Positions 1,513 to 21,172 of a stretch of 34,581 nucleotides of DNA are shown here, piece by piece; the stretch's first letter is position 1; the number at the start of each line of letters is the position of its first letter. A program made the position numbers and the translations under genes. The DNA is from Peterkaempfera griseoplana (GTDB lineage: Bacteria > Actinomycetota > Actinomycetes > Streptomycetales > Streptomycetaceae). The DNA lies in the NCBI RefSeq assembly GCF_001418575.1, contig NZ_LIQR01000365.1, positions 1 to 34,581 of the forward strand, in the 5' to 3' direction. Under the pieces are notes generated by a model, which saw only the letters and a list, made by a program, of their open reading frames with translations, made no database searches and had not been told where the DNA came from.

Positions 1513-2356
1513 GTGACCGGCTGGGCTTTGAGCCGTTCGTGGAAGCGTGAGCCGTGGATCGTGGACGACGAGCTGTGGTCTCTGATCGAGCCGATCCTGC
1601 CGCCGTGGCCGGAGCGGGCACCGGGTCCCCGCCCGGTTGACGATCGCCGCTGTCTGCAAGGCATCCTGTTCGTGCTGTATACCGGGATCACCTGGCAGCA
1701 GTTGCCGCTGGAGCTGGGCTTCGGCTCCGGGCAGACCTGCTGGCAGCGACTGAACCGGTGGTAGGAAGCCGGCGTTCGACGAGTTGAACCGCCTGCTGCT
1801 GGCCGAGTTGAACGCGGCCGGTGGGCTGGAGGGGTCCCGGGCCTGCGTGGACGCCTCCCACATCCGCGCGAAAAGGGGGGTGCGGCGACGGGCCCCTCGC
1901 CGGTCGACCGCCGCAAGACCGGCAGCAAACACCACCTGGTCACCGACGGCCGCGGTATCCCGCTCAAGGTGATCACCACGGGTGGGAACATCCCCGACGT
2001 CACGCAGACCCTCGCCCTGGTCGACGGCATCCCGCCCGTCGCCGCCCGTCGCCGGCCGGGCGGGACGACCACGCCGCCGCCCCGACGCACTGCTCGGCGA
2101 CAAGGGCTACGACAGCAACCCCAACCGCCGCGAACTCAGGCGGCGCGTCATCCTCCCCGTGATCTCCCGGCGCGGAGAACCCGACATCCACCACCTGGGC
2201 ACACTGCGCTACGTCATCGAGCAGACCTTCGCGCTCCTCCACCAGTTCAAGCGCTTGGCCGTCTGCTGGGAACGCCGCCTGGACCTGCACAACGCCCTCG
2301 TCTCACTTGGCTGCGCGATCATCTGCTGGCGTCGGCTGAAGAAGCGCACCCAGTGA
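1513..2356 (+). pseudogene. IS5-family transposase, multiply disrupted
   Basis: This is the DDE transposase of the surrounding IS5 element. The N-terminal part (1513-1764) contains the DDELWSLIEPILPPWPERAP block typical of these proteins and ends at TAG 1762-1764, where a CAG (Gln) codon is expected. Coding similarity then continues in other frames. CVDASHIRAK (near 1850) carries the first Asp in one frame. KTGSKHHLVTDGRGIPLKV and NIPDVTQTLALVDG follow in another frame, and LLGDKGYDSN plus the RYVIEQTFALLHQFKR block (final Glu) in a third. The last switch lies at a repeated gtcgccgcc unit near 2036-2055, suggesting slippage duplication. With at least one nonsense codon and three frame changes, the gene cannot encode the full enzyme. 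Confidence 0.85.
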
Positions 2357-2823: not shown

Positions 2824-3072
2824 ATGACCATCGACGAAAAGGTGACCGAAATAATTGACTCCTTTGTTTCCCAGGGGATGACCGCAGGCCGGGTCGAGTA
2901 CACTGATGAATCAACACTCGTCGGGGACTTGGGATTCGACTCACTCGTCTTCGTTACGTTTGTGGCCGCCATCGAGGACTCCCTGGGAATCGTCGTGCCG
3001 GATGAGGACTTCTCTATTAAGCGGTTCGCAACAGTCGGCGTGGTTCGCGCCTACATAAAGGCCAAGATGTGA
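2824..3072 (+). CDS. Free-standing acyl carrier protein
   Basis: An 82-residue carrier protein that would hold acyl groups as thioesters on a 4'-phosphopantetheine arm. The modification motif is GDLGFDSLVFV with the acceptor Ser at residue 40, and the length and acidic helical pattern are normal for a discrete ACP. AAAGGAGA (2810-2817) lies about six nucleotides before ATG 2824, which fixes the start. The carrier is followed by a condensation-domain gene and, further on, a LnmK-type acyltransferase. In leinamycin biosynthesis LnmK acts on the discrete ACP LnmL, so this protein is a plausible LnmL-like partner, but that is inference from context. A peptidyl carrier role with the condensation protein cannot be excluded. 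Codons such as ATA, ATT and TTT make it more A/T-rich than the ABC genes, which suggests transfer. Confidence 0.88.
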   Translation: MTIDEKVTEIIDSFVSQGMTAGRVEYTDESTLVGDLGFDSLVFVTFVAAIEDSLGIVVPDEDFSIKRFATVGVVRAYIKAKM

Positions 3073-3123: not shown

Positions 3124-3362
3124 CAGGGCGTGCAGCAGTTGAAACTGGGCAGGCGCGTCACCATCCAGGAACGCCGTCGTTCATCCCTGAATGGCGCCCG
3201 ACTGTCCGGCCTGGCTACACCCCAGGGCCGGCGGCTGGCTCCATCGACTGCTGATTGGCCCGGAGCGGGCGGCTGCGGTACTCGTCTGAGATCGGCGGGG
3301 TCGGCCGCGGCGGGGCCGAGAGGTGCCGATTTCCTTGTCTGCAAGCGATTGCTGGAGAAATG

Positions 3363-4754
3363 ATGTCAACGGTCCCAGAGCGAGACGATATTCTGCCCCT
3401 CATGCCTAGCCAGGCATGGTTCCTGAAAGGCCATCAGTACGATCTGCTGAACCCTAATCGATGGAACCTTCGCAGGGTCATCTTCCTGCCGGACGGGTGC
3501 AGTGAAAAACTGGCCAGATCGGCGGTGGAGTTTGTTTGGCGAGCGCATGACGCTCTGCGGGTTACATTTTGTCGAAGCGGGAACGATTGGGCGCAGCGCA
3601 TCTCCGGAGACTCCGATAATCCACCGTTTCGAGTGGTCGATGTTTCGCGTGTCGAGGCAGACAGGCAGCCGGATGCAGTTGGCAGGATCGAGGAACAGCT
3701 ACATAACACTTTGAACATAGAAACCGGTCCACTGGTTCGGTTCATGTATGTTCACGGAGGGGTCGGTTCGCCTCCGCGCCTCATCATTGCCGTGCATCAT
3801 CTCGTCTGTGACCTGCATTCAATGGACTTGATTGTTTCGGATATCGATCATTTCTTGGACTGCGCTCAGCTGGGCAGGGAGCCGAGGCTCCCGCGTTCCT
3901 TGCCCTACGGTGAAGCGGTGCTGGCTTTGGCTGATTATGCGCGGTCGGCTACGTTGCGGGCAGAACTTGACTACTGGCTGTCAAGGCCCTGGGCGGATGT
4001 TGTTGATCTGCCCAGGGATCGGCCGGATTACAGTGGTGAACCTTTTCGTCAGTTGACTTCTCTGTACGTTAAATCCGGACCACGCGACACGCGCGCCGTC
4101 ACCTCCAGAGAGGGAATTCAGCCGGTCCATGTTGTGCTGGGCGTTGTGGCCGATGCCATTACAGCGTGGGCCAATGGGCCGGTCTGTGTAGAGATGCTGT
4201 GGCACGGTCGGCAGGTGACACGCGGATCTGACGGTCCGCCTGTACTGTCACCCCGTGTTTGGCGCACGGTCGGATGGTTCGCCACGTCCGGACTGGCTGT
4301 GATCCCGCCGCGGGGATCTCTTGACCCGGACACTTATCTGGAAAATCTTAGTGAGAGCCTGGAATCAGTTCCTAACCAAGGGATCGGGCCGGCGCTTCTC
4401 CGCGGTATGGCTCTGAGGAGTCACGATGTCGACGCAGCCAACCGGATGTTCGCCAGGCGCACATTCCAATTTGGCTATTTTAGTTCGGCCAACCAGCGGC
4501 GCATGAATCTTCTCAAGGTGGTACGTCCATCAGGTGGTGCGGTCCCCCTTGAGGGCGATGTCCTGGAGCCGCGCCTGCCGATGAACGTACGAGCGAGGAT
4601 ACGTCCGGATGCCCTGAAGTTTTGGCTGGAATATGATTCAGGGATTCACTTCGAATCGACGGTGGCGAAGGTTGCTGAGTCGATTCTGGGAACTCTCTCA
4701 GATTATGCAGAGTTCGTTGATGTCCCAACCGATGATGTCATGGATCCAGCCTAG
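3363..4754 (+). CDS. Free-standing NRPS-type condensation-domain protein
   Basis: A 463-residue protein of the condensation/CoA-dependent acyltransferase fold, which joins a carrier-bound acyl group to an amine or alcohol acceptor. Landmarks in order are the N-terminal LPLMPSQAWFLKG (11-23), the catalytic HHLVCDLHS (His145-His146-x3-Asp150), EMLWHGRQV (277-285, the EGHGR-type motif) and TVGWFATSG (302-310). The Gly that usually follows the motif Asp is Leu, so this is a variant. The length equals one condensation domain; no adenylation, carrier or thioesterase domain is attached. ATG codons lie at 3360 and 3363. I chose 3363 because GGAG at 3354-3357 then has five-base spacing. The acyl donor is probably the ACP upstream; the acceptor is unknown. 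Base composition is A/T-richer than neighbouring IS and ABC genes. A wax-ester-synthase-like or phthiocerol-transferase-like (PapA) role is the main alternative. Confidence 0.85.
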   Translation: MSTVPERDDILPLMPSQAWFLKGHQYDLLNPNRWNLRRVIFLPDGCSEKLARSAVEFVWRAHDALRVTFCRSGNDWAQRISGDSDNPPFRVVDVSRVEADRQPDAVGRIEEQLHNTLNIETGPLVRFMYVHGGVGSPPRLIIAVHHLVCDLHSMDLIVSDIDHFLDCAQLGREPRLPRSLPYGEAVLALADYARSATLRAELDYWLSRPWADVVDLPRDRPDYSGEPFRQLTSLYVKSGPRDTRAVTSREGIQPVHVVLGVVADAITAWANGPVCVEMLWHGRQVTRGSDGPPVLSPRVWRTVGWFATSGLAVIPPRGSLDPDTYLENLSESLESVPNQGIGPALLRGMALRSHDVDAANRMFARRTFQFGYFSSANQRRMNLLKVVRPSGGAVPLEGDVLEPRLPMNVRARIRPDALKFWLEYDSGIHFESTVAKVAESILGTLSDYAEFVDVPTDDVMDPA

Positions 4755-4959: not shown

Positions 4960-6825
4960 GTGGCGTCTTCTCTTCGCATACGCGGGTTTCTCAGCCGAAG
5001 GCTGCGGCTGTTCACGCTGCTTCGCGCGGCGGGGCGCGGGGTCGTGGTGGCGCTGGTGCTGATCGGCCTCGTGCAGTGTCTGATGCCGGCGGCGTTGGCG
5101 TTGGCGCTCTCCGAGACGGTTGGTGGTTTGCGGTCGCTGTCGTCGGGCTCGGGGGCGGCGTGGCTCGGGTTCGCGGCGTTCGTCCTGGTGATCACGGCGA
5201 GCCATGTCCTGAGCGCCTTCATTCAGCCGCTGCAGCAGTTGGCGAAGGAGCGGGTCGACGGCGCGCACCGGGAGCGAGTGGTGCGTCGCGTTCTGTCGGC
5301 AGCGACGCTGGACGCGGTCGAGGCGGGTGAGGTTCAGGACGCGATCCGGCTGGCCGCCGCGGAGCCGCAGAACTGGACGGAGAAGACACCCGGCGACGGG
5401 GCCGTCTCCCAGTTGCAGATGCTGTTCCTCTACGTCACGGGCGTCGCGTCGTGTGTGGTGGTGGCGGTGCACTGGGCGTGGCTGGTGCCGGTGCTGGTGG
5501 TGCCCGCGCTGCTGCAGCGGTTCCTGCGGCGCCGGGCGTGGCTGGAGCTGAACCGGATCTGGGCGGGGCGGGCCGACCGGGGTCGGCGGGCGGAGTACTG
5601 GCGGGGCATGTTGACCTCCCCGGCGACCGGCAAGGAGGTGCGGCTGTTCCGGCTGGGTGAGCACGTCATCGGAAGGGTACGCGGTCATGTGCTGGACCAG
5701 CTGGCGCCTGTGTGGCGGTATAGCCTGCGGATTCCCCTGTGGCAGTCCTGGGGGTTCGGGCTTACGGCGGTTCCGCTGGCCCTGGCGTACGGCTGGGCGG
5801 CGACGCAGGTGATTCACGGTCATGCGTCGCTGGCGGCGGAGGCGGCGGTGCTGAGTGCCGCCGCGTCGGTCTACGCGCTGGGCGGCATAGCGGACGCGTT
5901 CGGCATCGAGGGCGCCCGGCCTGGTCTGGCGGCGCTGGACCTGCTCGACGACCGCCTGAGCCCCGGCCTGTCGGACGCGCCCGACCCGTCCGACGGAGCG
6001 GAGGCCGAGGTGGCGGACGGCGCTCCGCTGGTGGAGCTGCGCGACGTCACCTACCGGTACCCGCGGAGTGAACAAGCGGTGCTGGACGGTGTCTCGCTGA
6101 CGATCGCCCCCGGTGAGCGGGTCGGCATTGTGGGCCTGAACGGCGCCGGCAAGTCGACGCTGATCAAGGTGCTCACCGGGCTGTACGAGCCGGACGGCGG
6201 CACGCTGCTGGTGAACGATGCCCCGGTGACCCGCGCTGGCGGCGGTCTGGAGCGTTGGCGGTCCCGGGTCTCTGTGCTGTTCCAGGACTTCGTGCGGTAC
6301 CAGCTGCCGGCCGAGGAGAACATCGCGCTGGGCCGGCCCGGCGTACCGGACCGGGAGCTGGTGACGGCCGCCACACATGGCGCGGGCGTCGACGCCTTCC
6401 TGGCGGGGTTGCCGAACGGCGTGGAGACGCCGCTGTCGCGGGGCCTCACCGGGGGTGTGGATCTGTCCGGCGGCCAGTGGCAGCAGGTGGCGCTGGCGCG
6501 CGTGCTGTACGCGGCTGAGCGCGGCGCCGGGCTGCTGGTGCTGGACGAGCCGACGGCGCATCTGGACGTCCGCAGCGAGCAGGAGTTGTTCGAGCGCCTG
6601 CTGGCACGGCCGCGGTCGGCGTCGGTGGTACTGGTGTCGCACCGGCTGGCGACGATGCGGAAGGTGGACCGGATCGTCATGCTGCACGGGGGGCGGATCA
6701 CGGAATCCGGCTCCCACGAGGAACTGATGCGGTTGGACGGGCGGTACGCGGAGATGTTCCGCATCCAGGCGCGGCGATTCCAGGAGGGGTTCGACGACCG
6801 CGCCAAGGAGGGCGAGCTGGTATGA
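4960..6825 (+). CDS. ABC exporter half-transporter (membrane plus ATPase), first of pair
   Basis: A 621-residue fused exporter subunit. The N-terminal half contains about five or six hydrophobic segments (for example VVVALVLIGLVQCLMPAALA near residue 30). The ATPase half has Walker A GLNGAGKST (near 391-399), Q-loop FQDFVRYQLPAEENIALG, signature LSGGQWQQ (near 502), Walker B LLVLDEPTAH (near 524) and H-loop SHRL (near 559). All catalytic residues look intact. The start is GTG 4960, preceded by GAGGTGA at 4944-4950. The FQDF/ENI type of Q-loop is common among exporters in peptide and siderophore clusters (general knowledge). The stop overlaps the start of the next ABC gene by four bases, so the two are translationally coupled and probably form a heterodimer. 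The gene is far more G/C-rich than the condensation gene upstream, hinting at separate origins. Confidence 0.92.
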   Translation: MASSLRIRGFLSRRLRLFTLLRAAGRGVVVALVLIGLVQCLMPAALALALSETVGGLRSLSSGSGAAWLGFAAFVLVITASHVLSAFIQPLQQLAKERVDGAHRERVVRRVLSAATLDAVEAGEVQDAIRLAAAEPQNWTEKTPGDGAVSQLQMLFLYVTGVASCVVVAVHWAWLVPVLVVPALLQRFLRRRAWLELNRIWAGRADRGRRAEYWRGMLTSPATGKEVRLFRLGEHVIGRVRGHVLDQLAPVWRYSLRIPLWQSWGFGLTAVPLALAYGWAATQVIHGHASLAAEAAVLSAAASVYALGGIADAFGIEGARPGLAALDLLDDRLSPGLSDAPDPSDGAEAEVADGAPLVELRDVTYRYPRSEQAVLDGVSLTIAPGERVGIVGLNGAGKSTLIKVLTGLYEPDGGTLLVNDAPVTRAGGGLERWRSRVSVLFQDFVRYQLPAEENIALGRPGVPDRELVTAATHGAGVDAFLAGLPNGVETPLSRGLTGGVDLSGGQWQQVALARVLYAAERGAGLLVLDEPTAHLDVRSEQELFERLLARPRSASVVLVSHRLATMRKVDRIVMLHGGRITESGSHEELMRLDGRYAEMFRIQARRFQEGFDDRAKEGELV

Positions 6826-8642
6826 CGACCAAGGGACTGTCTGTTCTCGGCAACTACGCGTGGCTGTGGCGGCGCATGTTGGGGATGTGCTGGCGGCGCC
6901 ACCCGGTGCTGTCGAGCGCGACACTGGCCGTACGGCTGATCGGTGTGGCCGCGTTCGTCGGCTCCGGCCTGGGCATGCGCGCCGTGATCGCCGACTCGCA
7001 GCTCGGCGTGCTCGGCGACGCGGTCGCCGCGGCGGTGGCTACCGCCGTCGCCTACGCCGCCAACTCGGTCGTCGGCCTCATCGCCATGAACCTGCGGATG
7101 CAGGTGGTGGAGCGGGTCGGCCTGATCGCGGTCGACGGTGAGATCCTGGGCGACATCGCCCGCGTCGACAGCATCGACCACCTGGAGCTCCCCGAGTTCC
7201 TCGACCGTGTCGAACTGCTGCGCGGGGCCTCGGCCAGGCTGGTGGACGTGGCCTGGGCAGGGCTCGAGGCCGTGCTCAACGTCCTGCAGCTGGCGCTGGC
7301 CATGCTCGTCCTGGGCACCGTCAGCCCGTGGCTGCTGCTCCTGCTGGTGATCGGGGCGGTGCCGCTGTGGTTCGACGGGCGGGGCCGTGCCGTGACCGTC
7401 CGCGCGGAGAAGGCCACCAGCGAGGACCTGCGGCTGCAGCGCCACCTGTTCGAGACGGCCACCCGACCCGGTACGCACAAGGAGGTGCGCGTCGCCGGCG
7501 TGGGCGAGCAGTTGGTGGAGCGCCAGGTGGCGCTGCGCGAGAGCGTGCAGGTGCGGCGCTTCCGCGCCCGCATGGTGGCCGCGTGCTGGCAGGCGGGCGG
7601 CTGGCTGGTGTTCACCGCCGGCTTCGCGGGCGGACTGGCGTACCTGATCGCCCTGGCGGTCGACGGACGGATCGGCGCCGGCGACGTGGTGCTGGCGGTG
7701 ACCGTCGCAAGCAACCTGCGCAACGCCATCGCTGCCGCCGTCACCCGCAGCACCGACGTTGCACGCAGCGGCACCCTGCTGGAGCCCTACCTGTGGCTTC
7801 GGGACTACGCCGAGACACACACCGTCCCCACGGGCGACCGGAAGGACGTCCCGTCCCGTCTCACCAACGACATCCGGCTGGAAGGACTCGGTTTCACCTA
7901 CGCCGGCAGCAACCGCCCCGCCGTCCGCGACGCGGACCTCGTCCTGCCCGCAGGCAGCGTCATCGCCATCGTCGGCGAGTACGGCTCCGGCAAGACCACC
8001 CTGGCCAAACTGCTCTGCAAGTTCCACGAGCCGACCGCCGGACGGATCACCATTGACGGCGCCGACCTGGCCGACCTCGACACCGACCGCTGGTGGGGCT
8101 CCATCAGCGGTACCTTCCAGGACTTCGGCCGCTACCACACTACCGTCCGCGACGGCATCGGCTTCGGCGACCTCGACCACCGCGACGACGACGAACGGAT
8201 CGCCCGGGCCGTCGAGGAAGCCGACGCCTCCGCGCTGATCACCCGGATGCCGCAGGGACTCGACACCCCGCTCGGCGTCGACGCTGGCGGCATCGACCTC
8301 TCCGAGGGGCAGTGGCAGAAACTCGCCCTCGCCCGCTCCTGCATGCGCCGCGAACCGCTGCTGTTCCTGCTCGACGAACCCACCGCCTCCCTGGACGCCC
8401 CCAGCGAACAGGCGATCTTCGAGCACTTCATGCGCCGCGCCCGCGACGGAGCCGCCCGCAACGGCGCCGTCACCGTCGTCATCAGCCACCGCTTCTCCAC
8501 GGTGTCCGAGGCCGACCTGATCATCGTCATGGCAGATGGCCGCATCGCGGAACACGGCACCCACACCGAACTCCTCGCCTCCGGCTCCCTCTACGCCCAG
8601 CTCTACGACATCACCCGCACCTCCTACTCCGCCACCCACTGA
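6822..8642 (+). CDS. ABC exporter half-transporter, second of pair
   Basis: A 606-residue fused membrane-ATPase protein, paralogous to its neighbour. Membrane segments occupy roughly residues 20-310. The ATPase part shows Walker A GEYGSGKTT (near 384), FQDFGRYHTTVRDGIGFG, signature LSEGQWQK (near 493; Glu replaces the usual first Gly), Walker B LLFLLDEPTAS (near 513) and ISHRFST (near 555). ATG 6822 overlaps the preceding stop (ATGA), which decides the start and implies coupled translation of equal amounts of both subunits. The altered signature motif suggests one of the two ATP sites may be weaker, as in asymmetric heterodimeric exporters. The substrate is unknown; the neighbouring ACP, condensation and LnmK genes make their acylated product the natural candidate. 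Confidence 0.92.
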   Translation: MTTKGLSVLGNYAWLWRRMLGMCWRRHPVLSSATLAVRLIGVAAFVGSGLGMRAVIADSQLGVLGDAVAAAVATAVAYAANSVVGLIAMNLRMQVVERVGLIAVDGEILGDIARVDSIDHLELPEFLDRVELLRGASARLVDVAWAGLEAVLNVLQLALAMLVLGTVSPWLLLLLVIGAVPLWFDGRGRAVTVRAEKATSEDLRLQRHLFETATRPGTHKEVRVAGVGEQLVERQVALRESVQVRRFRARMVAACWQAGGWLVFTAGFAGGLAYLIALAVDGRIGAGDVVLAVTVASNLRNAIAAAVTRSTDVARSGTLLEPYLWLRDYAETHTVPTGDRKDVPSRLTNDIRLEGLGFTYAGSNRPAVRDADLVLPAGSVIAIVGEYGSGKTTLAKLLCKFHEPTAGRITIDGADLADLDTDRWWGSISGTFQDFGRYHTTVRDGIGFGDLDHRDDDERIARAVEEADASALITRMPQGLDTPLGVDAGGIDLSEGQWQKLALARSCMRREPLLFLLDEPTASLDAPSEQAIFEHFMRRARDGAARNGAVTVVISHRFSTVSEADLIIVMADGRIAEHGTHTELLASGSLYAQLYDITRTSYSATH

Positions 8643-8904: not shown

Positions 8905-9918
8905 ATGCGAGAGCGAGCGTATGAAGACCGTGCGGTCGGAGCGCGGATGAGCCCGACTACGCTTGACGATATCTCGGCGCTCGATGGCGCGGACACCTTG
9001 ACGAGGCGGGTGACCGTGTCGCCGGCGATGTGCGGCGCCGGTTCACTCATCTTTGCCCAAATGGGCGACTGGACCTGGGAAGCGGTTAATGCCGCTTGCG
9101 GAACAAACGTCTACAAGGCGCGTAGTGCGGCCGGGCTGCCCGCCTACCTGTCGTTCTATTACTTTAGAGTGAGTAGTAGCGGTCGATTGCATCCGCACGG
9201 TCTCACCTTCGGTGACGAGCTCGACGTGACGTCGCGGGTGTTCGACGTTGGCAGTCAGTCGGCGCCGCTCACCGTACACCGCATTTCTCGGGCCGACGAG
9301 GTGGCACAGCCCGGGCTGTTGGAGGCGGTCGAGGTATTTGAGCAGCCCCGGCCTGACTGTATTTATGTCGAGAACTTCAACCGTTGGATCGTACGAAGCG
9401 ATCCCGACTCGAATGTGGGCCTTGTTGCCGCTTCGCCAGTCGGCTACCAACACAAGCACCTACCGCGATTGCCCGCAACCTATTTGCCGAGGATAGCCGC
9501 TGGAAGTGCCAGGAAGAACCAGACCTTCTTCCCCTCCGGACTTCCGGGATTCTCCCCGGCGGCTCCGCCGTTCACGACAATCTATGAATTGGATGTTGTG
9601 AGAGATTTGAACGGCGTAGGGCTGCTTTACTTCGCCTCCTATTTCTCGATCGCCGATACCGCCTTGTTGCGCGCCTGGCGCGCGATGGGTCGGGAAGACA
9701 GGAAGTTCCTCGACCGCACCGTGCTCGATTACCGGCTTGGTATGTTTGGGAATGCTGATCTCGATTCCGTTTTTAATATCACGGTACGAATCTGGCAGGA
9801 CGAACGCGAGGCCGGGCATGAACTTGCGGACATCGTAATAAGCGAGCAGGGTACTGAGCGGATCCTGGGCGTCGTAGGAATCCGAACGCTGCTGAACAGT
9901 AAGCATTCACGAGGCTGA
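8905..9918 (+). CDS. LnmK-family bifunctional acyltransferase/decarboxylase
   Basis: A 337-residue double-hotdog-type protein that I recognise as LnmK-like. In leinamycin biosynthesis LnmK takes methylmalonyl-CoA, forms an acyl-O-tyrosine intermediate, decarboxylates it and delivers propionyl to a discrete ACP. Family-typical blocks are PAMCGAGSLIFAQMGDWTW (40-58), AYLSFYYFR (80-88, containing candidate catalytic Tyr residues), a FNRWIVRS block and RDLNGVGLLYFASYFS near the middle of the C-terminal half. ATG 8905 is chosen because GGGAGG (8895-8900) precedes it by four bases; an upstream ATG at 8809 is in frame but lacks a site, and 8947 is a possible later start. The length is close to LnmK itself. 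No PKS or HMG-synthase-like gene is nearby, which is unusual. The likely partner is the ACP at 2824. Composition is A/T-rich relative to the ABC genes. Substrate choice and decarboxylation are inferred from the family only. Confidence 0.82.
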   Translation: MRERAYEDRAVGARMSPTTLDDISALDGADTLTRRVTVSPAMCGAGSLIFAQMGDWTWEAVNAACGTNVYKARSAAGLPAYLSFYYFRVSSSGRLHPHGLTFGDELDVTSRVFDVGSQSAPLTVHRISRADEVAQPGLLEAVEVFEQPRPDCIYVENFNRWIVRSDPDSNVGLVAASPVGYQHKHLPRLPATYLPRIAAGSARKNQTFFPSGLPGFSPAAPPFTTIYELDVVRDLNGVGLLYFASYFSIADTALLRAWRAMGREDRKFLDRTVLDYRLGMFGNADLDSVFNITVRIWQDEREAGHELADIVISEQGTERILGVVGIRTLLNSKHSRG

Positions 9919-9957
9919 CGCTGACGTTGTAGGTGCCGAGAACCACGTCCGCGCTGG

Positions 9958-10150
9958 TCACGCGGCATGTTGGCACTCATGGAGAATGCCGCCGAGGCGG
10001 TCGCGTCTGCGAACGTCGAGGTGGACGAGTTGGTCCGATTCGAGCGGTTCCGGGAGTGGGCGTAGGGGAGCGGCGCCTGCGAGGGTTCGGTGGGGGCGGT
10101 GTTGGTTGTGGAAGGTCTCGTATTCGCGCAGGGCGTGTAGCAGGTGGGAT
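9958..10150 (-). pseudogene. C-terminal remnant of an integrase-core transposase
   Basis: The minus strand encodes HLLHALREYETFHNQHRPHR, then a stretch containing APLRPLPEP and RRRDRLGGILHECQHAA before the stop. This is the C-terminal tail of rve-type (IS3/IS481-like) transposases, with the last part of the DDE fold around NQHRPHR. The upstream part is missing because IS5 sequence is fused at about 10150. The sequence just left of the stop runs up to the end of lnmK, so the insertion landed immediately after that gene. Confidence 0.7.
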
Positions 10151-10415
10151 TGATGGCGGCGATCAGCACGGCGCTTCATACCGCACGGCCAGCTTCTCGT
10201 ATCGCGTGGCCACGGCGCGGTGCCTCTTCAGGCGGTTGATCCAGCACTCCACCGCGTGGCGCTCGCGGTAGTCGATCTTGTCGAACTCCGGTGGTCTGCC
10301 GCCGCGGAAGCCGCGCTTCTTCCGGTTGCGGATCTGGTCGGTCTTCTCGGGGATGGTGCAGCCAATGCCGCGTCTGCGCAGGTAGGCGCGGTTCGCCCGG
10401 GAGCCGTACGCCTAA
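10150..10415 (-). pseudogene. C-terminal remnant of an IS5-family transposase
   Basis: On the minus strand one frame reads [20 protein letters not shown], then [20 protein letters not shown] and [20 protein letters not shown], followed by [11 protein letters not shown]. This is the characteristic tail of an IS5-type transposase, with the final catalytic Glu in [12 protein letters not shown] stop lies just before AYGSR, and a one-base loss after RYEA shifts the frame so that the final VLIAAIN is read elsewhere. The fragment is fused to an integrase remnant on its right-hand coding side and has no visible terminal repeats. Confidence 0.75.
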
Positions 10416-10420
10416 TAGGC

Positions 10421-10752
10421 ATCAAGGTCGGAGCTTCCCGACCGTGGCAGGGGTCGGGCGAGACGTCTGATCTGTATGCCGCGCTTCGAGCGCTTCGACA
10501 AGAGGGACGCGTGTGCGGCCCCTGCCGCTTGGGACTCGGCCGCCGTAGCGTGCCGTGGTTCGAGCCGTTCCCAGGGCCACCTCTTGATCAGCCGGAGCCG
10601 TGGAGCTCTTCACGAGAGCGAGGACCCTGAGAACAGCTGGGGCCACGAACGGCTGATGGGGTGGTGCGCCAGCGAGCGCTTCTATTAGGTCGCCGAGTGG
10701 TCCTGCCGCGGCTCGACGCCGACGGACATCGGAGCATCGAAAAGAGGCGGGC
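10421..10752. other. Non-coding stretch between IS remnants
   Basis: I see no convincing gene. A short palindrome (ggtcgg, six-base loop, ccgacc, near 10427-10444) occurs at the left edge. The right edge, just before 10753, resembles the usual leader of an IS110-type transposase gene. Confidence 0.35.
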
Positions 10753-10784: not shown

Positions 10785-10808
10785 GTGCTGCATCAGGCAA
10801 CGTTCGCC
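10785..10808 (+). repeat. IS630 left terminal inverted repeat
   Basis: It begins GTGCTGCATCAGGCAACG and is preceded by the TA at 10783-10784. It pairs with 12260-12283 apart from three mismatches, and the transposase stop codon (10793-10795) lies within it. Confidence 0.85.
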
Positions 10809-11926
10809 CTGCTGACGACCTCGCATAGGCGCTCGTCATGGGCGTGCTTGTTTCGCCAGATGATGTAGCGGCGGATCATGCTGCCCTGCTCCTTGTGGCT
10901 GGCGTGGTCGGTGCCGTCGAGGGTGAAGTAGCGCAGGGCGGTGAACTGGGCCTCGATGCGGTTGAGCCAGGAGCTGTTGGTCGGGGTGTAGGCGATCTCG
11001 ACGTTGTTGGCCTCGGCCCAGTCGGCCACCCGACGGCAGCGCTTGGTGGTCAGGTGTGGGGAGTAGTTGTCGCAGACGATGGCGATGCGTATGTCGGCCG
11101 GGTGGAGGCTGCGCAGGTAGCGGCAGAACTCCAGGAACCTCGTCCGGTTCTTGGTCTTCTTGATGTGGCCGTAGAGTTTGTCCTTGCCTAGGTCGTAGGC
11201 GGCGAACAGGTGTCGCACGCCGTGCGGGCGGGTGTAGGTCGCCCGCCGCCTCGGCCGGGGTTCACGGTCGGGGTCCTTGTGCTTGCCTCCTCGTTCGGCC
11301 CACTGCCGCCCGGGGTGGGGCTGGAGGTTGAGCGGCCCGAACTCGTCCATGCAGAAGACGACTTCGGGCTCACCGGGCTCGGGTATGACCTCGCCGTCCG
11401 CGATCGCGTAGAGGTGTTCGACCCGGGCCTTCTTCGCCTCGTAGTCCGGGTCGCGGGAGACCTTCCAGGTCTTCACGCGTTGAAAGGAGACGCCCTCCTC
11501 GCGGAGCAGGACCCGCAGGCCCTCGTGGCTGATGTCGTCGACCACCCCCTCGGCGACCAGGAAGTCGGCCAGCTTGGCCAGGCTCCAGGTCGAGAAGGGC
11601 AGACCGTGCTCGGCCGGCTTGGACTTGGCGATCTTCTTGATCTCACGCCGCTCGGGCAGGGTGAAGGTTCTCGGCCGTCCGCCCTTGTACTTCGGGTAGA
11701 GCGCCTCGAAGCCGTCGGTGTTGAAGTCGTGGATCACATCGCGCACCTGGTCCGGGCTTGTGAACGTCACCTCGGCGATCTTCGCCACCGGCATGCCCTG
11801 CGCGGACAGCAACACCATCTGGGCGCGCCGCCACGTCACCACCGAGCCGGTGCCTCTGCGGATGATCCGCAGCAACCGCCGACCCTCGTCGTCATTGATC
11901 TCACGAACCCGCACCCGTTCAGCCAT
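10793..11926 (-). CDS. IS630-family transposase
   Basis: A 377-residue DDE transposase. The N-terminal helix-turn-helix region includes VAKIAEVTFTSPDQVRDVIH, followed by a linker with KYKGGRPRTF. Catalytic blocks are VFCMDEFGPL (first Asp), IVCDNYSPHLT (second Asp) and LNRIEAQFTALRYF (Glu). All three acidic residues are present and no frameshift is seen. ATG 11926 (MAERVRV) is preferred over an ATG two codons earlier and over the longer upstream extension, which reads as non-coding and would overlap the neighbouring small gene. The stop lies inside the left terminal repeat, as usual for compact insertion sequences. Expected activity is cut-and-paste into TA dinucleotides. Confidence 0.9.
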   Translation of the reverse strand: MAERVRVREINDDEGRRLLRIIRRGTGSVVTWRRAQMVLLSAQGMPVAKIAEVTFTSPDQVRDVIHDFNTDGFEALYPKYKGGRPRTFTLPERREIKKIAKSKPAEHGLPFSTWSLAKLADFLVAEGVVDDISHEGLRVLLREEGVSFQRVKTWKVSRDPDYEAKKARVEHLYAIADGEVIPEPGEPEVVFCMDEFGPLNLQPHPGRQWAERGGKHKDPDREPRPRRRATYTRPHGVRHLFAAYDLGKDKLYGHIKKTKNRTRFLEFCRYLRSLHPADIRIAIVCDNYSPHLTTKRCRRVADWAEANNVEIAYTPTNSSWLNRIEAQFTALRYFTLDGTDHASHKEQGSMIRRYIIWRNKHAHDERLCEVVSRANVA

Positions 11927-11973
11927 GCGCATAGCCTGGCAGCGACCGGAACCAGCAGACGGCTTCAACTGCG

Positions 11974-12240
11974 TCACATCGTCCGGCGTTTCCTCAGTTC
12001 GGCAAGCCATGCGTGCACCTGCTCGTCGTCGTGCAGGTAGCCGCCGCTCTCGTCCGCAGGAAGATCGATTCCGTAGAGGAGGCTCAGCGCCCACCAGGAC
12101 ACGTCGTCCCAATCGAGCTTGTCGACGGTCACCCATCGCCCGGCCCAGCGGTCGACCTCATCCCGGGTCAACCGACCCTCGACAAGTGCAACGAAGCGGT
12201 CTTCGATCTCATCAAGAGTCGGTTGGCGGCTGGCGTCCAT
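11974..12240 (-). CDS. Small hypothetical protein carried inside the IS630 element
   Basis: An 88-residue acidic protein (MDASRQPTLDEIEDRFVALV onward) with a central RDEVDRWAGRWV and a WWALSLLYGIDLP block, ending in a charged HAWLAELRKRR tail. I know similar small hypothetical proteins from actinomycetes but no function for them. It lies between the right terminal repeat and the transposase start, on the same strand, with the stop about 50 nt before the transposase ATG. It is therefore a passenger or accessory gene of the element. ATG 12240 fits the conserved-looking N-terminus; an in-frame ATG at 12264 would fall at the edge of the terminal repeat. No membrane segment, signal peptide or DNA-binding motif is evident. 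Possible roles include a transposition modulator or a captured host gene. Confidence 0.65.
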   Translation of the reverse strand: MDASRQPTLDEIEDRFVALVEGRLTRDEVDRWAGRWVTVDKLDWDDVSWWALSLLYGIDLPADESGGYLHDDEQVHAWLAELRKRRTM

Positions 12241-12302: not shown

Positions 12303-13728
12303 TTAGGTTGATTTCCGGCTTGTTGAGCTGGCTCTGGTTGGCCCGACGAGCTGGACCGTTGGGGTGTCCGGTGGTGGCGGGTTGTGGTGTTCGGCGCGTT
12401 TGAGGGCCCAGTTGGACATCTTGCGTTTGATCACGCGGGGGTTGGCCCGCAACCGCCGTGCAGGCAGCAGGCGTTCGGTGATCTCACGCAGGCTCTGGGC
12501 GGTCGCCCGGGTGAGTCGGGAGGGGGGAAAGCGCCGCCTGCCCGGTGACGTGGCGGCGGACGATGCGAAGGGTGCGGGTGAAGGAGAGCCGGTCCGGGTC
12601 GTGCCCGCCCTTGAGGGCGGCCTGGTGCATCAGGTCCCGCAGCGCGTGGTGGACCAGCAGGAACGCGAAGATCTCCTGCTCGACCCCGCGCGGGTGTTGT
12701 GAACGCAGCACGAGCCCGGGTCCGCCCTGATGGGTCTTGATCTCATCGAGGGTGTTCTCGATCTCCCACCGCTGGGCATAGAGGGCCGCAAGCTCCGCGG
12801 CCGGCGCCTGAGCCGGGTCGAGGATGGTGGTGATCAGTCGGTAGACGGTGCTGTCACCGCCGCTGTGGCTGCCAAGCGTGTACTCGATCACCCGCACCCG
12901 CTCCGGGTCCGCGCGCCGGTAGTTGTCCCGCGCGGCAACGATCTCGGACAGGTAGGAGCCGTCGGCGAGGGTTTCCAGGACTGGCAGCACGATCACGCTC
13001 CGCACCCGCCACAGCAGGTCGGCGCCGCCCACCTTCGCGGCCCGCCACAGGTCGAAACCGCAAAACCCCCGGTCCGCCAGGACGAGCATGCCCGTGACCA
13101 GGGCGGGAAACAGCCGCTCGGCCAGGACGGTCTCGTGGACCGTGAGCGGGCCGACCTCGGCCGCGAACACGGCGTGGGTACCGCACTCGGCCAAGGCTGC
13201 GACCCTCGCCTGCGGATAGGCACTACGACCCTGCCCGCGGCTGGTTCCCGGGCGCCCGAAGAACTCGGCGTTCGCCACTGTGTCGGGGGTGTCGAAGACG
13301 GTGCCGTCCACGGCGACCAGCCGCCACCGTCGGTACCAGGCGCCCTGCGTCTGGGCGACCGCAACCGGACGGCAGACCCGGGCGAACAGGGCCCGCAAGG
13401 GCTCTGGGCCCAACCGCAGCCTGGCCCGTCCGATCGCCGCCGTGGTGGGCACACGCCAGGCCTTCGCCCAGCGACCCTCCCGTTCCAGGCCCTGGACCAG
13501 GAGCCGGGCCACCTCTTCGTAGCCCTGCCCGAAGAACAGGCACATCGCCAGGACGAAATACACCACCACCCGTGCCGGCAGCAGCCGAGCCCGCTGCTCG
13601 ACCCGCCCGCACTCCGCGACCACTTCGTCCACCAGCTCCGGCGGAAACGCTCGCGTCAGCACCCCCAACGCGATCCGATCCGAAAACCGATCAACCCCTG
13701 ACGACTTCAACTGACCCGGCCTTGGCAC
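12303..13728 (-). pseudogene. IS4-family transposase with C-terminal frameshift
   Basis: The minus strand from ATG 13728 encodes an IS4-type DDE transposase (MPRPGQLKSSGVDRFSDRIA start). The insertion-domain context DGTVFDTPDTVANAEFFGRP carries the first Asp, ADRGFCGFDLW the second, and YAQRWEIENTLDEIKTH the YREK-like Glu region. The open frame ends early at 12484. Removing one base within the run at 12521-12531 restores a frame that stays open to a stop at 12303-12305, with a basic tail (RRLRANPRVIKRKMSNWALK) that looks authentic. I therefore infer a one-base insertion. The catalytic core is complete in the truncated product, so some activity is possible. The right end of the element is close to 12286, next to the IS630 target; the left end could not be placed. 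Confidence 0.75.
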
Positions 13729-16552: not shown

Positions 16553-17353
16553 TCAGACGGCGACGACCGTGATGCCGCCGTCGCGCAGGCGGTCGGAGAC
16601 GTCGGAGGGGATGCCGGTGTCGGTCACCAGCACATCGATCCGCCCGAGGTCGCACACCCGGGCGAAGGCCCGCTTGCCGATCTTCGAGGAGTCGGCTGCC
16701 ACGACCACGCGCTGGGCCCGCTCGGCCAGCAGCCGGTTGATGGCGGCCTCGCCCTCGTGGTGGACGTAGGCGCCGCGTCCGATGTCGATCGCGTTGACCC
16801 CCAGCACGGCGACGTCCAGGGTGATCTCCTCCAGGACTCCGCTGGCCAGGGGCCCGGTGAGCTCGTAGGACTGAGGGCGGGCGACGCCGCCGGTGACGAC
16901 GATCTTGATCTGCGGCCGGATGACGAGCTCGTTCGCGATGTTGAGGGCGTTGGTCACCACGGTGAGGGCCGGCAGCCCGCCGCTCGCGGCAGCGGTGTCG
17001 CCTACGATGTCGGCGCGCACCGACAGGGCGCGGCCCACCTCGGTGATGGTGGTGCCCCCCGTCAGCCCCACCACCTCACCGACGGACACCAGGTCCGCTA
17101 CGGCGCGGCCGATGCGCTGCTTCTCCGGGGCGTGTCGCGCCGTCTTGTAACGCAACGGCAGCTCGTAGGAGACCCCGTGTGCGACCGCGCCGCCCCGGGT
17201 GCGGGTGAGCATGTGCTGCTCGGCGAGCTGGTCGAGGTCGCGGCGGATCGTTGCGGCGGAGACGTCAAGTGCGGCCGCGGCCTCGTCGACCTCCACGCGA
17301 CCGTTCTGCGCGACCAGCTCCAGCAGTGTGTTCCACCGGGCATCCCTGGACAC
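16553..17353 (-). CDS. DeoR/GlpR-family transcriptional repressor, AgaR-like
   Basis: A 266-residue sugar-phosphate-responsive regulator. The N-terminal winged helix-turn-helix includes AAALDVSAATIRRDLDQLAE. The C-terminal DeoR sensor domain has GLTGGTTITEVGRAL, VVTNALNIANEL and VVVAADSSKIGKRAF, the usual sugar-phosphate pocket blocks. I chose GTG 17353 because GAGGAGAG lies five bases before it; an ATG at 17368 in the same frame overlaps that site and has none of its own. The gene diverges from the SIS/ROK/PfkB/aldolase operon, so it most likely represses that operon and is relieved by an amino-sugar phosphate or tagatose phosphate. The effector identity is inference. Confidence 0.88.
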   Translation of the reverse strand: MSRDARWNTLLELVAQNGRVEVDEAAAALDVSAATIRRDLDQLAEQHMLTRTRGGAVAHGVSYELPLRYKTARHAPEKQRIGRAVADLVSVGEVVGLTGGTTITEVGRALSVRADIVGDTAAASGGLPALTVVTNALNIANELVIRPQIKIVVTGGVARPQSYELTGPLASGVLEEITLDVAVLGVNAIDIGRGAYVHHEGEAAINRLLAERAQRVVVAADSSKIGKRAFARVCDLGRIDVLVTDTGIPSDVSDRLRDGGITVVAV

Positions 17354-17469
17354 GGGCTCTCTCCTCATGCATGAGCGGTGTTGATCTCTACGGCTGCATA
17401 AGAGCAGGCATTGAACAGGCGCAAGCGTGACACATTGCGCCGATCGGTCGCAGTCGGCTCTGGGCGTGC

Positions 17470-17499
17470 TTGAAATTGATTGGAGAACGCGTGTAGCGT
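17470..17499 (+). promoter_or_regulatory. Candidate promoter of the amino-sugar operon
   Basis: TTGAAA (17470-17475) and TAGCGT (17494-17499) are separated by 18 bp and point to the SIS gene start at 17539. Two similar A/T-containing units, GAAATTGA (17472-17479) and GAAATCGA, overlap or follow the promoter and could be DeoR contact sites in this 185-bp divergent region. Confidence 0.45.
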
Positions 17500-17538
17500 G
17501 CGAAATCGAGCATAGACCTCACAGTTTGGAGCATAGGC

Positions 17539-18423
17539 ATGACATTCGTGGACACCGAGATCGCAAGCCAGCCGGAGTGCTGGCAGCGCGCAGCAGACCT
17601 GGCCGCCGAGGGGGGCGCGGCTCTGCCCGACCCCGGTGAACGGATCGCCGTGGTGGGCTGCGGCACCTCCTACTACATGGCGCAGTCCTATGCGGCGCTG
17701 CGCGAAGGCACAGGCCAGGGCGAGTCGGACGCCTTCGCGGCCTCCGAGTTCCCGCTGGACCGGCCGTACGACCGGGTGCTCGCCCTCACCCGCTCCGGCA
17801 CCACCACCGAGGTGCTGGAACTGCTCGGCCGCCTCGACGGCACCACCCGCACCACCGCCGTCACCGCCGACCCCGACACCCCGGTGATGTCGGCCGCCGA
17901 CGACGTGGTCGTCCTGGACTTCGCCGACGAGCAGTCGGTGGTGCAGACCCGGTTCGCCACCACCGCGCTCACCCTCTTCCGCGCCCACCTCGGCCTGCAC
18001 ACCGACAACGTGGTCGAGGACGCGCGGACCGCGCTGGCCGAGCCGCTGTCGCAGGATCTGGTGGACGCCACCCAGATCGCCTTCCTCGGCCGCGGCTGGA
18101 CGGTCGGCCTGGCCAACGAGGCGGCGCTCAAGATGAAGGAGGCGTCGCTGTCCTGGACGGAGTCCTACCCCGCGATGGAGTACCGCCACGGCCCCATCAG
18201 CATCGCCACCACCGGCACCGCGACCTGGATGTTCGGTCCCGCCCCCGCCGGCCTCGCCGAGCAGGTGCGCGCCACCGGCGCCCACTGGGCCGAGAGCCCC
18301 CTGGACCCGCTGGCCGACCTGGTCCGCGTCCAGCGTCTCGCGGTCGCCCGCGCGGCCGCCCGGGGCCTCGATCCCGACCGGCCGCGTCATCTGACGCGCT
18401 CGGTGGTCCTCGCGGACGCCTAG
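17539..18423 (+). CDS. agaS: SIS-domain sugar isomerase/deaminase, AgaS-like
   Basis: A 294-residue cytoplasmic protein with two SIS sugar-phosphate domains. The first has VVGCGTSYYMAQSYAAL (38-54) and ALTRSGTTTEVLE. The second has GRGWTVGLANEAALKMKEAS and SYPAMEYRHGPIS, where Glu and His of this kind act in ring opening and isomerisation. There is no glutaminase domain, so it is not GlmS. AgaS enzymes convert galactosamine-6-phosphate to tagatose-6-phosphate with loss of ammonia. The neighbouring PfkB kinase and class II aldolase are the next two enzymes of that route, which supports the assignment; glucosamine-6-phosphate deamination is the main alternative. ATG 17539 has a GGAG site seven to eight bases upstream. 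It starts a four-gene operon with very short gaps. Confidence 0.78.
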   Translation: MTFVDTEIASQPECWQRAADLAAEGGAALPDPGERIAVVGCGTSYYMAQSYAALREGTGQGESDAFAASEFPLDRPYDRVLALTRSGTTTEVLELLGRLDGTTRTTAVTADPDTPVMSAADDVVVLDFADEQSVVQTRFATTALTLFRAHLGLHTDNVVEDARTALAEPLSQDLVDATQIAFLGRGWTVGLANEAALKMKEASLSWTESYPAMEYRHGPISIATTGTATWMFGPAPAGLAEQVRATGAHWAESPLDPLADLVRVQRLAVARAAARGLDPDRPRHLTRSVVLADA

Positions 18424-18427
18424 CGCC

Positions 18428-19351
18428 ATGGCCTACCTGATAGCCCTGGACGTCGGCGGGACGGGCATCAAGGCGGCCCTGCTCGACGCCACCGGCCGCG
18501 CCATGGAGCAGTACTGGCGCCCCACGGGTCGGGAGCAGGGGCCGGACGCCGTGGTGCGCCGGATCGTCACCTTCACCGAAGAACTGCAGCGGCAGGCCGC
18601 GGGGGCAGGTATGCCTGCCTCGGCCGTGGGTCTCGCCGTCCCCGGCATCGTCGACGCGCCCGCCGGCGTCGGCATCCGCTCCACGACCATCGGCTGGCGG
18701 GACATCCCCTTCGGAGAACTGGTCCGGGAGCGGACCGGCCTCCCGGTTGCTCTCAGCCATGACGTCCGCGCCGGGGGAGTGGCCGAGGCCCGTCTGGGAG
18801 CCGGCCGTGCCCACCGCTGGTTCCTGTTCGTCGCCGTCGGGACCGGCATCGCGGCGGCCCTGGTCAGCGACGGCCGGGCGGTGCCGGGAGCCCAACACCG
18901 CGCCGGGGAGATCGGCCACATCCCGGTACGGCCGGGTGGGGAGGAATGTGTGTGCGGCGGCGCCGGATGTGCCGAGGCCTATGCGTCCGCAGCTGCCGTG
19001 GCGCGGCGGCACACCGCCCTCACCGGCACGCACTCCGAGGCCTCACAGGTCGCCCGGCTCGCAGCCGCGGGCGACGTGGCGGCGGGCGGGGTGTGGGACG
19101 AGGCGGTCACCGCCCTGGCCGATGCGCTGCTCATCGCCTGCGCCGTTGTGGACCCGCCGCTGATCGTCCTCGGCGGCGGACTCGCGGAGTCCGGCGAACT
19201 GCTGCTCGCCCCCCTGCGGGCCCGCATGGCCGAACGGGCCACCGTCCAGCATCCCCCCCTGCTCGCCCGCGCCCAGCTGGGCGACCGGGCGGGCTGTCTG
19301 GGGGCGGGCCTGCTGGCAGCCGACCTGACCAAAGGGGGAATCCGCCGGTGA
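18428..19351 (+). CDS. ROK-family sugar kinase
   Basis: A 307-residue kinase. DVGGTGIKAALLD (8-20) is the ATP phosphate-binding loop. LSHDVRAGGVAEARLGAG holds the catalytic Asp and FVAVGTGIAAALV the second phosphate loop. The Zn-binding ROK signature is GHIPVRPGG...CVCGGAGCAEAY, with His and three Cys present. No DNA-binding domain is attached, so it is an enzyme rather than a NagC-type repressor. ROK kinases phosphorylate glucose, GlcNAc, ManNAc or GalNAc. Position between AgaS-like and PfkB genes makes the 6-phosphorylation of a hexosamine most likely. It starts four bases after the SIS stop and overlaps the next gene by four bases. Confidence 0.88.
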   Translation: MAYLIALDVGGTGIKAALLDATGRAMEQYWRPTGREQGPDAVVRRIVTFTEELQRQAAGAGMPASAVGLAVPGIVDAPAGVGIRSTTIGWRDIPFGELVRERTGLPVALSHDVRAGGVAEARLGAGRAHRWFLFVAVGTGIAAALVSDGRAVPGAQHRAGEIGHIPVRPGGEECVCGGAGCAEAYASAAAVARRHTALTGTHSEASQVARLAAAGDVAAGGVWDEAVTALADALLIACAVVDPPLIVLGGGLAESGELLLAPLRARMAERATVQHPPLLARAQLGDRAGCLGAGLLAADLTKGGIRR

Positions 19352-20256
19352 TCGTCACCCTGACGCCCAACCCGGCGCTCGACATCACCTACACCGTCCC
19401 CGGCTTCCGCCCGCACGCCACCCACCGGGTGGCCGAGGTATGCGCGCAGGCGGGAGGCAAGGGCGTCAACGTCGCCAGGGTGCTGCACACCCTGGACCGT
19501 CCGGCGATGGCGGTGCTCCCCCTGGGCGGACGCACCGGAGCCGAGATTGCCCACGACCTCGCCGCCTGCGGAATCCCGTACGCCGGCGTGCCGATCGACG
19601 GAGAGACCCGCCGCACGGTCGCCGTTGTCGACGGCACCGACACCACCATGCTCAACGAGCCGGGCCCGGAGGTGGACGGGCGGCAATGGGCCGCCGTGCA
19701 CCAGCGGGTGCGGGAACTGCTGCCGTACACTGCCGTGCTGGTCGTCTCCGGCAGCCTGCCCCGGGGGTTGTCCGAGGACGCCTGCGCTGCGCTGATCCGG
19801 CTCGCCCGCGGGCGTGGCGTACCCGTGGTCCTCGACGCGGACGGCCCGGTGCTGGCCGCAGGGCTGAGCGCGCGGCCCACCGTGGTCAAGCCCAACGCTG
19901 CCGAACTGGCCGCGGCCACCGGCATCGAGGACCCTGTCCGGGCCGCGGTCGCCCTGCTGGCCGCCGGAGCCCAGGCGGTGGTCGCCTCGCTGGGCCCCGA
20001 CGGACTGCTGGCGGTCACCCCGGACGGCAGCTGGCGGGCCCGCCCGCCGCAGCACCTCGCCGGCAACACCGCCGGCGCCGGCGACGCCGTGGTCGCCGCC
20101 CTCGCCGTCGGCCTCGCCGACGGCACGTCCTGGCCTGATGTGCTCGCCGACGCGGTCGCGCTCTCCGCTGCGACCGTCCTGGCACCGCGCGCCGGGGTGT
20201 TCGTCCCCGAGGCGTACCGGCGGTTCGCCGCGCTCGCCTGCGCCACCCGTGTCTGA
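19348..20256 (+). CDS. PfkB-family kinase: tagatose-6-phosphate or fructose-1-phosphate kinase
   Basis: A 302-residue sugar-phosphate kinase of the LacC/FruK branch. MIVTLTPNPALDITY is the typical start, AGGKGVNVARVL the substrate-binding PfkB signature, and NTAGAGDAVVAA the anion-hole motif with the catalytic Asp. GTG 19348 overlaps the ROK stop (GTGA), with AAAGGGGG about ten bases upstream. In this operon it most likely makes tagatose-1,6-bisphosphate from tagatose-6-phosphate for the aldolase that follows. FruK (fructose-1-phosphate) belongs to the same branch, but no PTS gene is nearby. Confidence 0.85.
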   Translation: MIVTLTPNPALDITYTVPGFRPHATHRVAEVCAQAGGKGVNVARVLHTLDRPAMAVLPLGGRTGAEIAHDLAACGIPYAGVPIDGETRRTVAVVDGTDTTMLNEPGPEVDGRQWAAVHQRVRELLPYTAVLVVSGSLPRGLSEDACAALIRLARGRGVPVVLDADGPVLAAGLSARPTVVKPNAAELAAATGIEDPVRAAVALLAAGAQAVVASLGPDGLLAVTPDGSWRARPPQHLAGNTAGAGDAVVAALAVGLADGTSWPDVLADAVALSAATVLAPRAGVFVPEAYRRFAALACATRV

Positions 20257-20296
20257 TCCCTGCCCGCCTGCTTTCCCGGCTCCCCCGGAGAGACTC

Positions 20297-21172
20297 ATGC
20301 CCCTCGCAGCCACCGGCGTCCTGGTCGCCGCCGCAGCCGCCGAACACCGCGCTGTCGCTGCGTTCAACATCATCACCCTGGAGCACGCCGAAGCGGTCGT
20401 CGCGGGCGCCGAGCTCTCGGGCACCCCGGTGATCCTCCAGATCAGCGAGAACGCCGTGGCCTTCCACAACGGCTGCCTGGCCCCGCTCGCCCGCGCCGCC
20501 GCCGAGACCGCACAGCTGGCCGGTGTGCCGGTAGCCCTCCACCTGGACCATGTGCAGAGCACCCGGCTGCTCCACCAGGCGGCGGACTGCGGGTTCAGTT
20601 CGGTGATGTACGACGCCTCCGGCCTGCCGTACGAGGAGAACCTGGCCGCCACCCGCGCCGCCGCGCAGTGGGCCCACCGACACGGGCTCTGGGTGGAGGC
20701 GGAGCTCGGCCGGGTCGGGGGCAAGGGCGGCGGGGCCCCGCTCGGCGCCCACGCGCCGGGCGCCCGGACCGACCCCGGCGAGGCCCGCGCGTTCGTCGCC
20801 GCCACCGGTGTGGACGCCCTCGCCGTGGCGATCGGCAGCTCCCACGCGATGACCTCCCGTACGGCCCGCCTCGACCACGGCCTGCTGGAGCGGCTGCGCG
20901 CAGCCCTGGACCTGCCGCTGGTCCTCCACGGCTCCTCCGGGTTGCCCGACGCCGAACTTCGGGCGGCCGTCAACGGCGGGATCGCGAAGATCAACATCGG
21001 AACCGCCCTCAACACCTCGATGACCGGTGCCATCCGGGGCCATCTCGCCGAGCGCCCGCACGCTGTGGACCCTCGCGACTATCTCGCGCCGGCCCGCAGC
21101 GCGATGAGCCGAACGGTCGCCGCCTACATCACCACCCTGAACGGCGCCGCCGAGGAGGTGCCCGCGGGCTGA
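20297..21172 (+). CDS. Class II ketose-bisphosphate aldolase (tagatose/fructose-bisphosphate type)
   Basis: A 291-residue zinc aldolase. AFNIITLEHAEAVV is the typical N-terminal block, HLDHVQS carries Zn-ligand His and catalytic Asp residues, VEAELGRVGGKGGG holds a further conserved Glu and the K-binding loop, and LHGSSGLPD and KINIGTAL are the phosphate-binding motifs. It splits a ketose-1,6-bisphosphate to DHAP and glyceraldehyde-3-phosphate, completing the route begun by the SIS protein. Start ATG 20297 has GGAGAGA just upstream. The gap to PfkB is 40 nt. Tagatose preference (KbaY/GatY) is inferred from context; fructose bisphosphate would be the alternative. No terminator is evident after it. 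Confidence 0.85.
   Translation: MPLAATGVLVAAAAAEHRAVAAFNIITLEHAEAVVAGAELSGTPVILQISENAVAFHNGCLAPLARAAAETAQLAGVPVALHLDHVQSTRLLHQAADCGFSSVMYDASGLPYEENLAATRAAAQWAHRHGLWVEAELGRVGGKGGGAPLGAHAPGARTDPGEARAFVAATGVDALAVAIGSSHAMTSRTARLDHGLLERLRAALDLPLVLHGSSGLPDAELRAAVNGGIAKINIGTALNTSMTGAIRGHLAERPHAVDPRDYLAPARSAMSRTVAAYITTLNGAAEEVPAG

Follow-up and report, generated by a model that had tools for sequence, protein, structure and literature searches.

A LnmK-family enzyme paired with a free-standing protein of epimerization-domain descent in a possible acyl-transfer cassette of Peterkaempfera griseoplana

LnmK of the leinamycin pathway is a bifunctional methylmalonyl-CoA:acyl carrier protein (ACP) acyltransferase/decarboxylase, and LnmL is its ACP. 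Enzymes of this kind were first found beside the enzymes of beta-branching and charge a carrier protein with a three-carbon acid. We take residue 62 to be the functional tyrosine of LnmK and, in epimerization (E) domains, the glutamate of the EGHGR motif to be catalytic. To our knowledge, no protein of the E-domain lineage is a free-standing acyltransferase. Free-standing proteins of the condensation (C) type do have precedents: OaaC uses an acyl-ACP together with a free amine according to a preprint (PMC13142362), and SgcC5 is described as a free-standing condensation enzyme in two further papers (PMC4425429, PMC10212144), the second of which places it near the LCL type. The ADH unit of cyclomarin is made from valine and pyruvate (PMC8401383).

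The locus described here lies on a stretch of 34,581 nucleotides (the window) that is an entire contig (C296) of a host assembly of 8.24 Mb in 802 contigs and 95.6% completeness. Five genes on the plus strand make up the cassette: an ACP of 82 aa with a GFDSL phosphopantetheine site (2824..3072; PF00550, 4e-8), a free-standing C/E-superfamily protein of 464 aa with the motif HHLVCDL (3360..4754; PF00668, 1e-25; the E-like protein below), two ABC half-transporters whose genes overlap by 4 bases (4960..6825, a permease-ATPase with a GTG start, PF00005, 9e-27; and 6822..8642, PF00005, 2e-24), and a predicted LnmK-family acyltransferase/decarboxylase of 337 aa assigned by family profiles (8905..9918, coding to 9915 with the stop at 9918). 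This last protein matches LnmK_N_HDF (Pfam) at 7e-75 and reaches 246 bits against TIGR04098 (NCBIfam LnmK_bifunc; cut-off 100, 4e-73, model positions 1-266 of 270), and its only solved relatives are four LnmK crystal chains at about 1e-90; sequence comparison thereby confirms the initial annotation of a bona fide LnmK-family member. Among the candidate starts, 8905 has the best ribosome-binding site (gtgggagggcccATG). The protein retains 43 of the 45 columns that are at least 95% conserved across 81 other family rows, the exceptions being Tyr181 (Phe in the others) and Gly322 (Ala in the others), while its Tyr81, the counterpart of residue 62 in PDB chain 6x7l, is kept in 81 of 81 rows. From its residues, the enzyme looks functional.

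With LnmK/LnmL of leinamycin, the window cassette shares the TIGR04098 family, conserved residues and a dedicated ACP, but it lacks the HMG-synthase LnmM, an enoyl-CoA hydratase (ECH) and an AT-less PKS, and its ACP has no detectable likeness to LnmL (no match at 1e-6). The best NCBIfam matches of this ACP are stand-alone ACPs, every one of them scoring under its cut-off. Probes for HMG-synthase-like proteins (HCS), ECH, KS, KAS, PKS, aldolase, acetaldehyde dehydrogenase, hydratase and aminotransferase had no match in the window at 1e-3, so the absence of HCS, ECH and PKS genes beside LnmK stands as initially noted; a match of an NRPS probe inside the LnmK gene was dismissed as a frame-shadow artefact. 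The host assembly encodes a single LnmK and has no match to PF01154 (HCS), and the best hit of an HCS protein search of it had an E value of 0.39.

This absence had at first been taken as odd in itself, which the family at large does not bear out. Of the 76 loci examined, all from named genomes, 39 have a homologue of HCS at an E value of 1e-30 or lower within the fetched stretch; the fetched stretch holds none in the other 37, five of which (L063, L078, L104, L113, L114) come from pieces of less than 15 kb, where absence is less telling. Since nearly half of the family thus lacks a nearby HCS, the argument from absence is weaker. A LnmK match occurs in 20 of 394 genomes of the host family. 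The survey also turned up several other arrangements. HCS-free LnmKs lie near a KAS-type ketosynthase at L028, L043/L105, L048/L123, L089, L097, L101, L102, L114 and L126, some of these loci also having an SDR, which makes up a further setting without beta-branching. Planctomycetota relatives (L112, L113, L117, L124) are 33-35% identical to the window protein and lie on HCS-free stretches. LnmK-family matches in open frames of about 2000 aa beside KS matches (L040, L044-L047, L049 and L050, in genomes G168, G341, G317, G141, G288, G296 and G007) may represent LnmK domains integrated into PKS proteins. At L051 (G098, 9558-10432), a LnmK beside an HCS is split over two overlapping frames by a frameshift in either the gene or the assembly.

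Phylogeny sets the window LnmK apart from the leinamycin type. An 82-row tree, which omits the duplicates L092 and L123, the partial or duplicate-like L078 and L127, the frameshifted L051 and loci that repeat named records, places it within a 23-row clade (100/98). Also in this clade are four HCS loci that have KS and ECH (L024, L057-L059) and a clade of 18 HCS-free rows (100/100). The window LnmK is sister to the HCS-free clade with support of 99/79 in this tree and of 81/54 in a 32-row subset chosen for testing its placement, and its branch is long (0.53 in the 82-row tree). This placement is weak: in AU tests on the 32-row subset, a group of the window LnmK and the four HCS rows is not rejected (p 0.25). 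Grouping it with the leinamycin-type rows (L025, L086, L093) is rejected (p 0.00037), and the window LnmK is therefore not of the leinamycin type. A leinamycin-like cluster with its remaining genes elsewhere in the host, which the initial annotation had named as the finding that would overturn its reading, was discarded on both counts, by this rejection and by the lack of any HCS in the host assembly.

The neighbouring clade turned out to have a cassette of its own. Its 18 rows represent 19 loci (L034 and L125 are identical; members include L026, L035, L038, L060-L072 and L128), and all 18 distinct loci carry a FAA-hydrolase-family protein, a DmpG-type aldolase with a communication domain and an acylating aldehyde dehydrogenase, as well as an ACP or an ACP-fused aldolase, with these partner genes all lying upstream of LnmK at a distance of no more than about 6.2 kb. 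A class-I aminotransferase match is found at 15 of the 18 and a methyltransferase match at 12, while aldolase, dehydrogenase and FAA-hydrolase occur in none of the 66 other LnmK rows probed. This shared aldol-type set means that LnmK already has a second setting that is not beta-branching. The set presumably resembles the individual enzymes of the cyclomarin ADH unit, and by this analogy we infer a route in which propionyl-ACP would be converted to propanal, which would undergo aldol addition with pyruvate; the adduct would then be dehydrated, in some cases methylated, and transaminated to aminohexenoate-type residues. The loci probably encode such a propionate-derived, cyclomarin-ADH-like amino acid route beside NRPS/PKS genes. 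An apparent LnmK-NRPS fusion at L060 was rejected, as the 3618-aa ORF is in a different frame from LnmK and the nearby NRPS_CA matches are frame-shadow. In the open PMC literature, we found no paper that places LnmK in an aldolase cassette or next to an E-type protein encoded as a free-standing gene.

The window LnmK is related to this clade as its nearest HCS-free one, and both have an ACP beside LnmK, but the window has no aldehyde dehydrogenase, aldolase, FAA-hydrolase, hydratase or aminotransferase. The host is likewise devoid of a clade-type aldolase: the closest match to the aldolase probe has 41% identity, compared to 72-100% among clade members, and with HCS also missing from the genome, the known LnmK partners are absent. 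Because the contig starts inside a transposase gene, genes farther left are unseen, and an HCS/ECH pair or an aldehyde-dehydrogenase/aldolase set could be imagined in that unsequenced gap, given that the window LnmK falls inside a clade of HCS and aldol clusters (100/98) and that the AU test does not reject its union with the four HCS rows. Such a hidden partner is scarcely probable at all when no HCS is present in a 95.6% complete assembly, the host aldolase is that distant from those of the clade and at least two insertion sequences separate the ACP from the contig end.

With these partners missing, the simplest guess is that the acyl group passes through the E-like protein (3360-4754). The initial annotation had considered this partner an ordinary condensation protein, a description that its ancestry contradicts. 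In phmmer searches, it scored 105-124 bits against EGHGR-carrying NRPS domains from four genomes, whereas no condensation domain from the host genome exceeded 28 bits, and on PvdL it scored 80 bits against the first C/E domain and 1 bit against the second. A profile of 8 E domains gave 180 bits, compared to 63.5 for a profile of 33 C domains, and in a tree with 25 C domains and 8 E domains it falls among the latter (100/98), with a long branch (1.41) and its composition flagged. An ordinary LCL condensation domain is excluded by the E profile and by this placement. The protein aligns over its full length (12-447 of 464) and retains both HHxxxD (as HHLVCDL) and RTVGWF, but it has a Leu at the Glu of EGHGR (Glu in 8 of 8 E domains) and SM in place of the SW that follows HHxxxD in E domains. 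Considering the retained HHxxxD, the full length and the change from Glu to Leu, it is probably active, yet not as an epimerase. AlphaFold2 models, made from the protein by itself and together with three E domains, were unusably poor (mean pLDDT 32 and 39). Elsewhere in the host, other short ORFs of about 460-560 aa with C-domain matches (contigs C595, C40, C591 and C589) are possibly further free-standing C proteins.

The lineage, RTVGWF, an HGR motif and HHxxxD are thus common to the window protein and the E domains TycA-E, GrsA-E and PvdL-E, but it is free-standing, with no A or T domain and with the ACP as a separate upstream gene. As its closest relatives are epimerization domains, it might instead act as an isomerase or epimerase on an ACP-bound alpha-substituted acyl group rather than as an acyltransferase. 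We consider this highly improbable, as the Glu and SW signatures described above are replaced and propionyl-ACP, the expected product of LnmK, has no alpha stereocentre. In a bolder version of the acyltransferase reading, somewhat doubtful to us, an E domain would have escaped from an NRPS and, after loss of the epimerase Glu, would now function as a stand-alone acyl-ACP acyltransferase with LnmK as its decarboxylative loader.

For an acyltransferase, the closest functional analogy to the window cassette is the fatty-acid-amide system OaaA/OaaACP/OaaC (PMC13142362). Both have a discrete ACP and a free-standing C-superfamily protein with no downstream carrier, and in both the residue after HHxxxD is not Gly (Leu in the window, mostly Ser or Ala in OaaC systems). 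The OaaA system is loaded by an adenylation domain, the window cassette would be loaded by LnmK, and no stand-alone adenylation domain was found among the window ORFs scanned. The acyl group would be C3 in the window and is long-chain in OaaC systems, and an exporter lies inside the window cassette, unlike in OaaA/ACP/OaaC. The C-type proteins also seem to differ in descent, with OaaC nearest to starter C domains (PMC13142362) and the window protein of E lineage among the E and C domains sampled. SgcC5 is likewise free-standing and works with a carrier-bound donor and a small acceptor, as the window protein would, but its placement near LCL (PMC10212144) would make it a different C subtype from the window protein.

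The pairing of LnmK with an E-derived free-standing protein is new and was seen once; the cassette is known from one genome and one contig riddled with insertion sequences. Neither of two other genomes of the genus has a LnmK, and the nearest LnmK that turned up, L057, shares 60% identity, with nothing closer in 394 genomes of the class. Close relatives of the E-like protein are absent from 394 genomes of the family and from 396 genomes of the phylum (overlapping samples), where only NRPS domains match, at 27-33% and 29% identity, respectively, and its best matches on plasmids are NRPS-type with less than 60% identity. Near LnmK, none of the 85 rows probed has an E-like relative at 1e-8, so the clade of LnmKs next to stand-alone C domains that the initial annotation proposed to look for has no further member among them; one match at 2e-7 comes from L067, a locus that holds NRPS E domains.

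Insertion sequences lie on both sides of the cassette. On the left are an IS1380-family transposase at the contig end (95..1117, plus strand; NF033539, 1e-60), with the contig boundary inside its gene, and remnants of an IS5/IS4-type transposase in two ORFs and two frames (1513..2356, plus strand; PF13340 on 1513-1764, and 1982-2356 recognized by eye). On the right are an IS630-family transposase (10793..12136, minus strand; NF033545, 3e-48) and an IS4-family transposase (12484..13728, minus strand; NF033592, 2e-68), followed by a carbohydrate locus with genes for a hyaluronate-lyase-like protein, DeoR, ROK, PfkB and a class-II aldolase. The hyaluronate-lyase-like protein (23585-25999) scores 487 bits against NF053732, below the cut-off of 1350. 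The DeoR/ROK/PfkB/aldolase operon (16619-21111) shares 75-83% identity and synteny with G001 of the same genus, and the equivalent of the G001 chromosomal site in the host (contig C223) is without the DeoR-to-aldolase operon. The right flank has therefore changed place too, and the point at which the cassette inserted cannot be read from it.

Base composition divides the five genes. GC3 is 0.71 in the ACP gene, 0.60 in the E-like gene and 0.69 in the LnmK gene, compared to 0.90 and 0.93 in the ABC genes and to a median of 0.91 (range 0.73-0.95) in 35 ORFs taken from other NRPS loci of the host. The unusually low GC3 common to the first three points to a joint history not shared with the ABC pair; they probably arrived together, and the ABC pair looks native by composition. 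Relatives about 50% identical to this pair are found in Streptomyces plasmids adjoining sugar and tailoring genes (49.5% identity for the protein of 6822-8642 and a member of one such pair), a context consistent with export of a small natural product. A search of plasmid DNA with the cassette matched the ABC pair, with otherwise unrelated short matches.

Such surroundings could also be those of a ruin, in which LnmK, the ACP and the E-like protein, left behind by insertion sequences from a larger NRPS/PKS-type cluster, now make nothing. Besides the transposases on either side and the contig beginning inside one of them, this would fit the failure to find cassette relatives elsewhere, and the low GC3 and long LnmK branch fit relaxed selection as well. 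Yet all five ORFs are open and co-directional, without stops or frameshifts, and good ribosome-binding sites precede the genes for the ACP (ctaaaggagaacctctATG, a strong one), the E-like protein (tggagaaATG) and LnmK. The near-invariant residues of LnmK are kept, and the E-like gene is, by its own ribosome-binding site and complete length, a whole domain and no slice of an NRPS. Occurrence in one genome among insertion sequences nonetheless makes this remnant explanation the main rival, if a somewhat doubtful one in our eyes.

Alternatively, propionyl-ACP and the E-like protein may serve an NRPS or PKS elsewhere in the genome, for example with a starter unit, the ABC pair exporting the product. 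The host has 30 PF00668 matches spread over many contigs of its fragmented assembly, and LnmK relatives adjoin NRPS/PKS genes in other genomes. Service in trans nevertheless appears unlikely to us, as the dedicated ACP beside the E-like gene suggests a closed set, the 34.6-kb contig carries no NRPS or PKS gene and nothing links the cassette to any particular host cluster.

We tentatively favor a compact acyl-transfer system free of adenylation domains, in which LnmK, the ACP, the E-like transferase and ABC export would together yield a propionylated molecule. As strongly suggested by its family, LnmK would transfer the methylmalonyl group from methylmalonyl-CoA to the cassette ACP and decarboxylate it to propionyl-ACP. 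The E-lineage protein may then hand the ACP-bound propionyl group to a soluble nucleophile; an amine, giving an N-propionyl amide, is the likeliest acceptor, and an alcohol, giving an ester, a less likely one; the cassette itself has no enzyme for making the acceptor. Finally, the product would be exported by the paired ABC half-transporters.

For the LnmK family, the strict association with an aldol-type cassette (18 of 18 distinct loci) predicts unusual aminohexenoate building blocks. For the organism, the five-gene set points to a small pathway of its own that would make and export a propionylated molecule, and if this is true, NRPS-like amide or ester synthesis would proceed without adenylation, with the activated acid coming directly from methylmalonyl-CoA. 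If the E-like protein is active in this way, the C/E superfamily would include acyltransferases descended from epimerases, and genome-mining tools would wrongly annotate these as epimerases or condensation domains.
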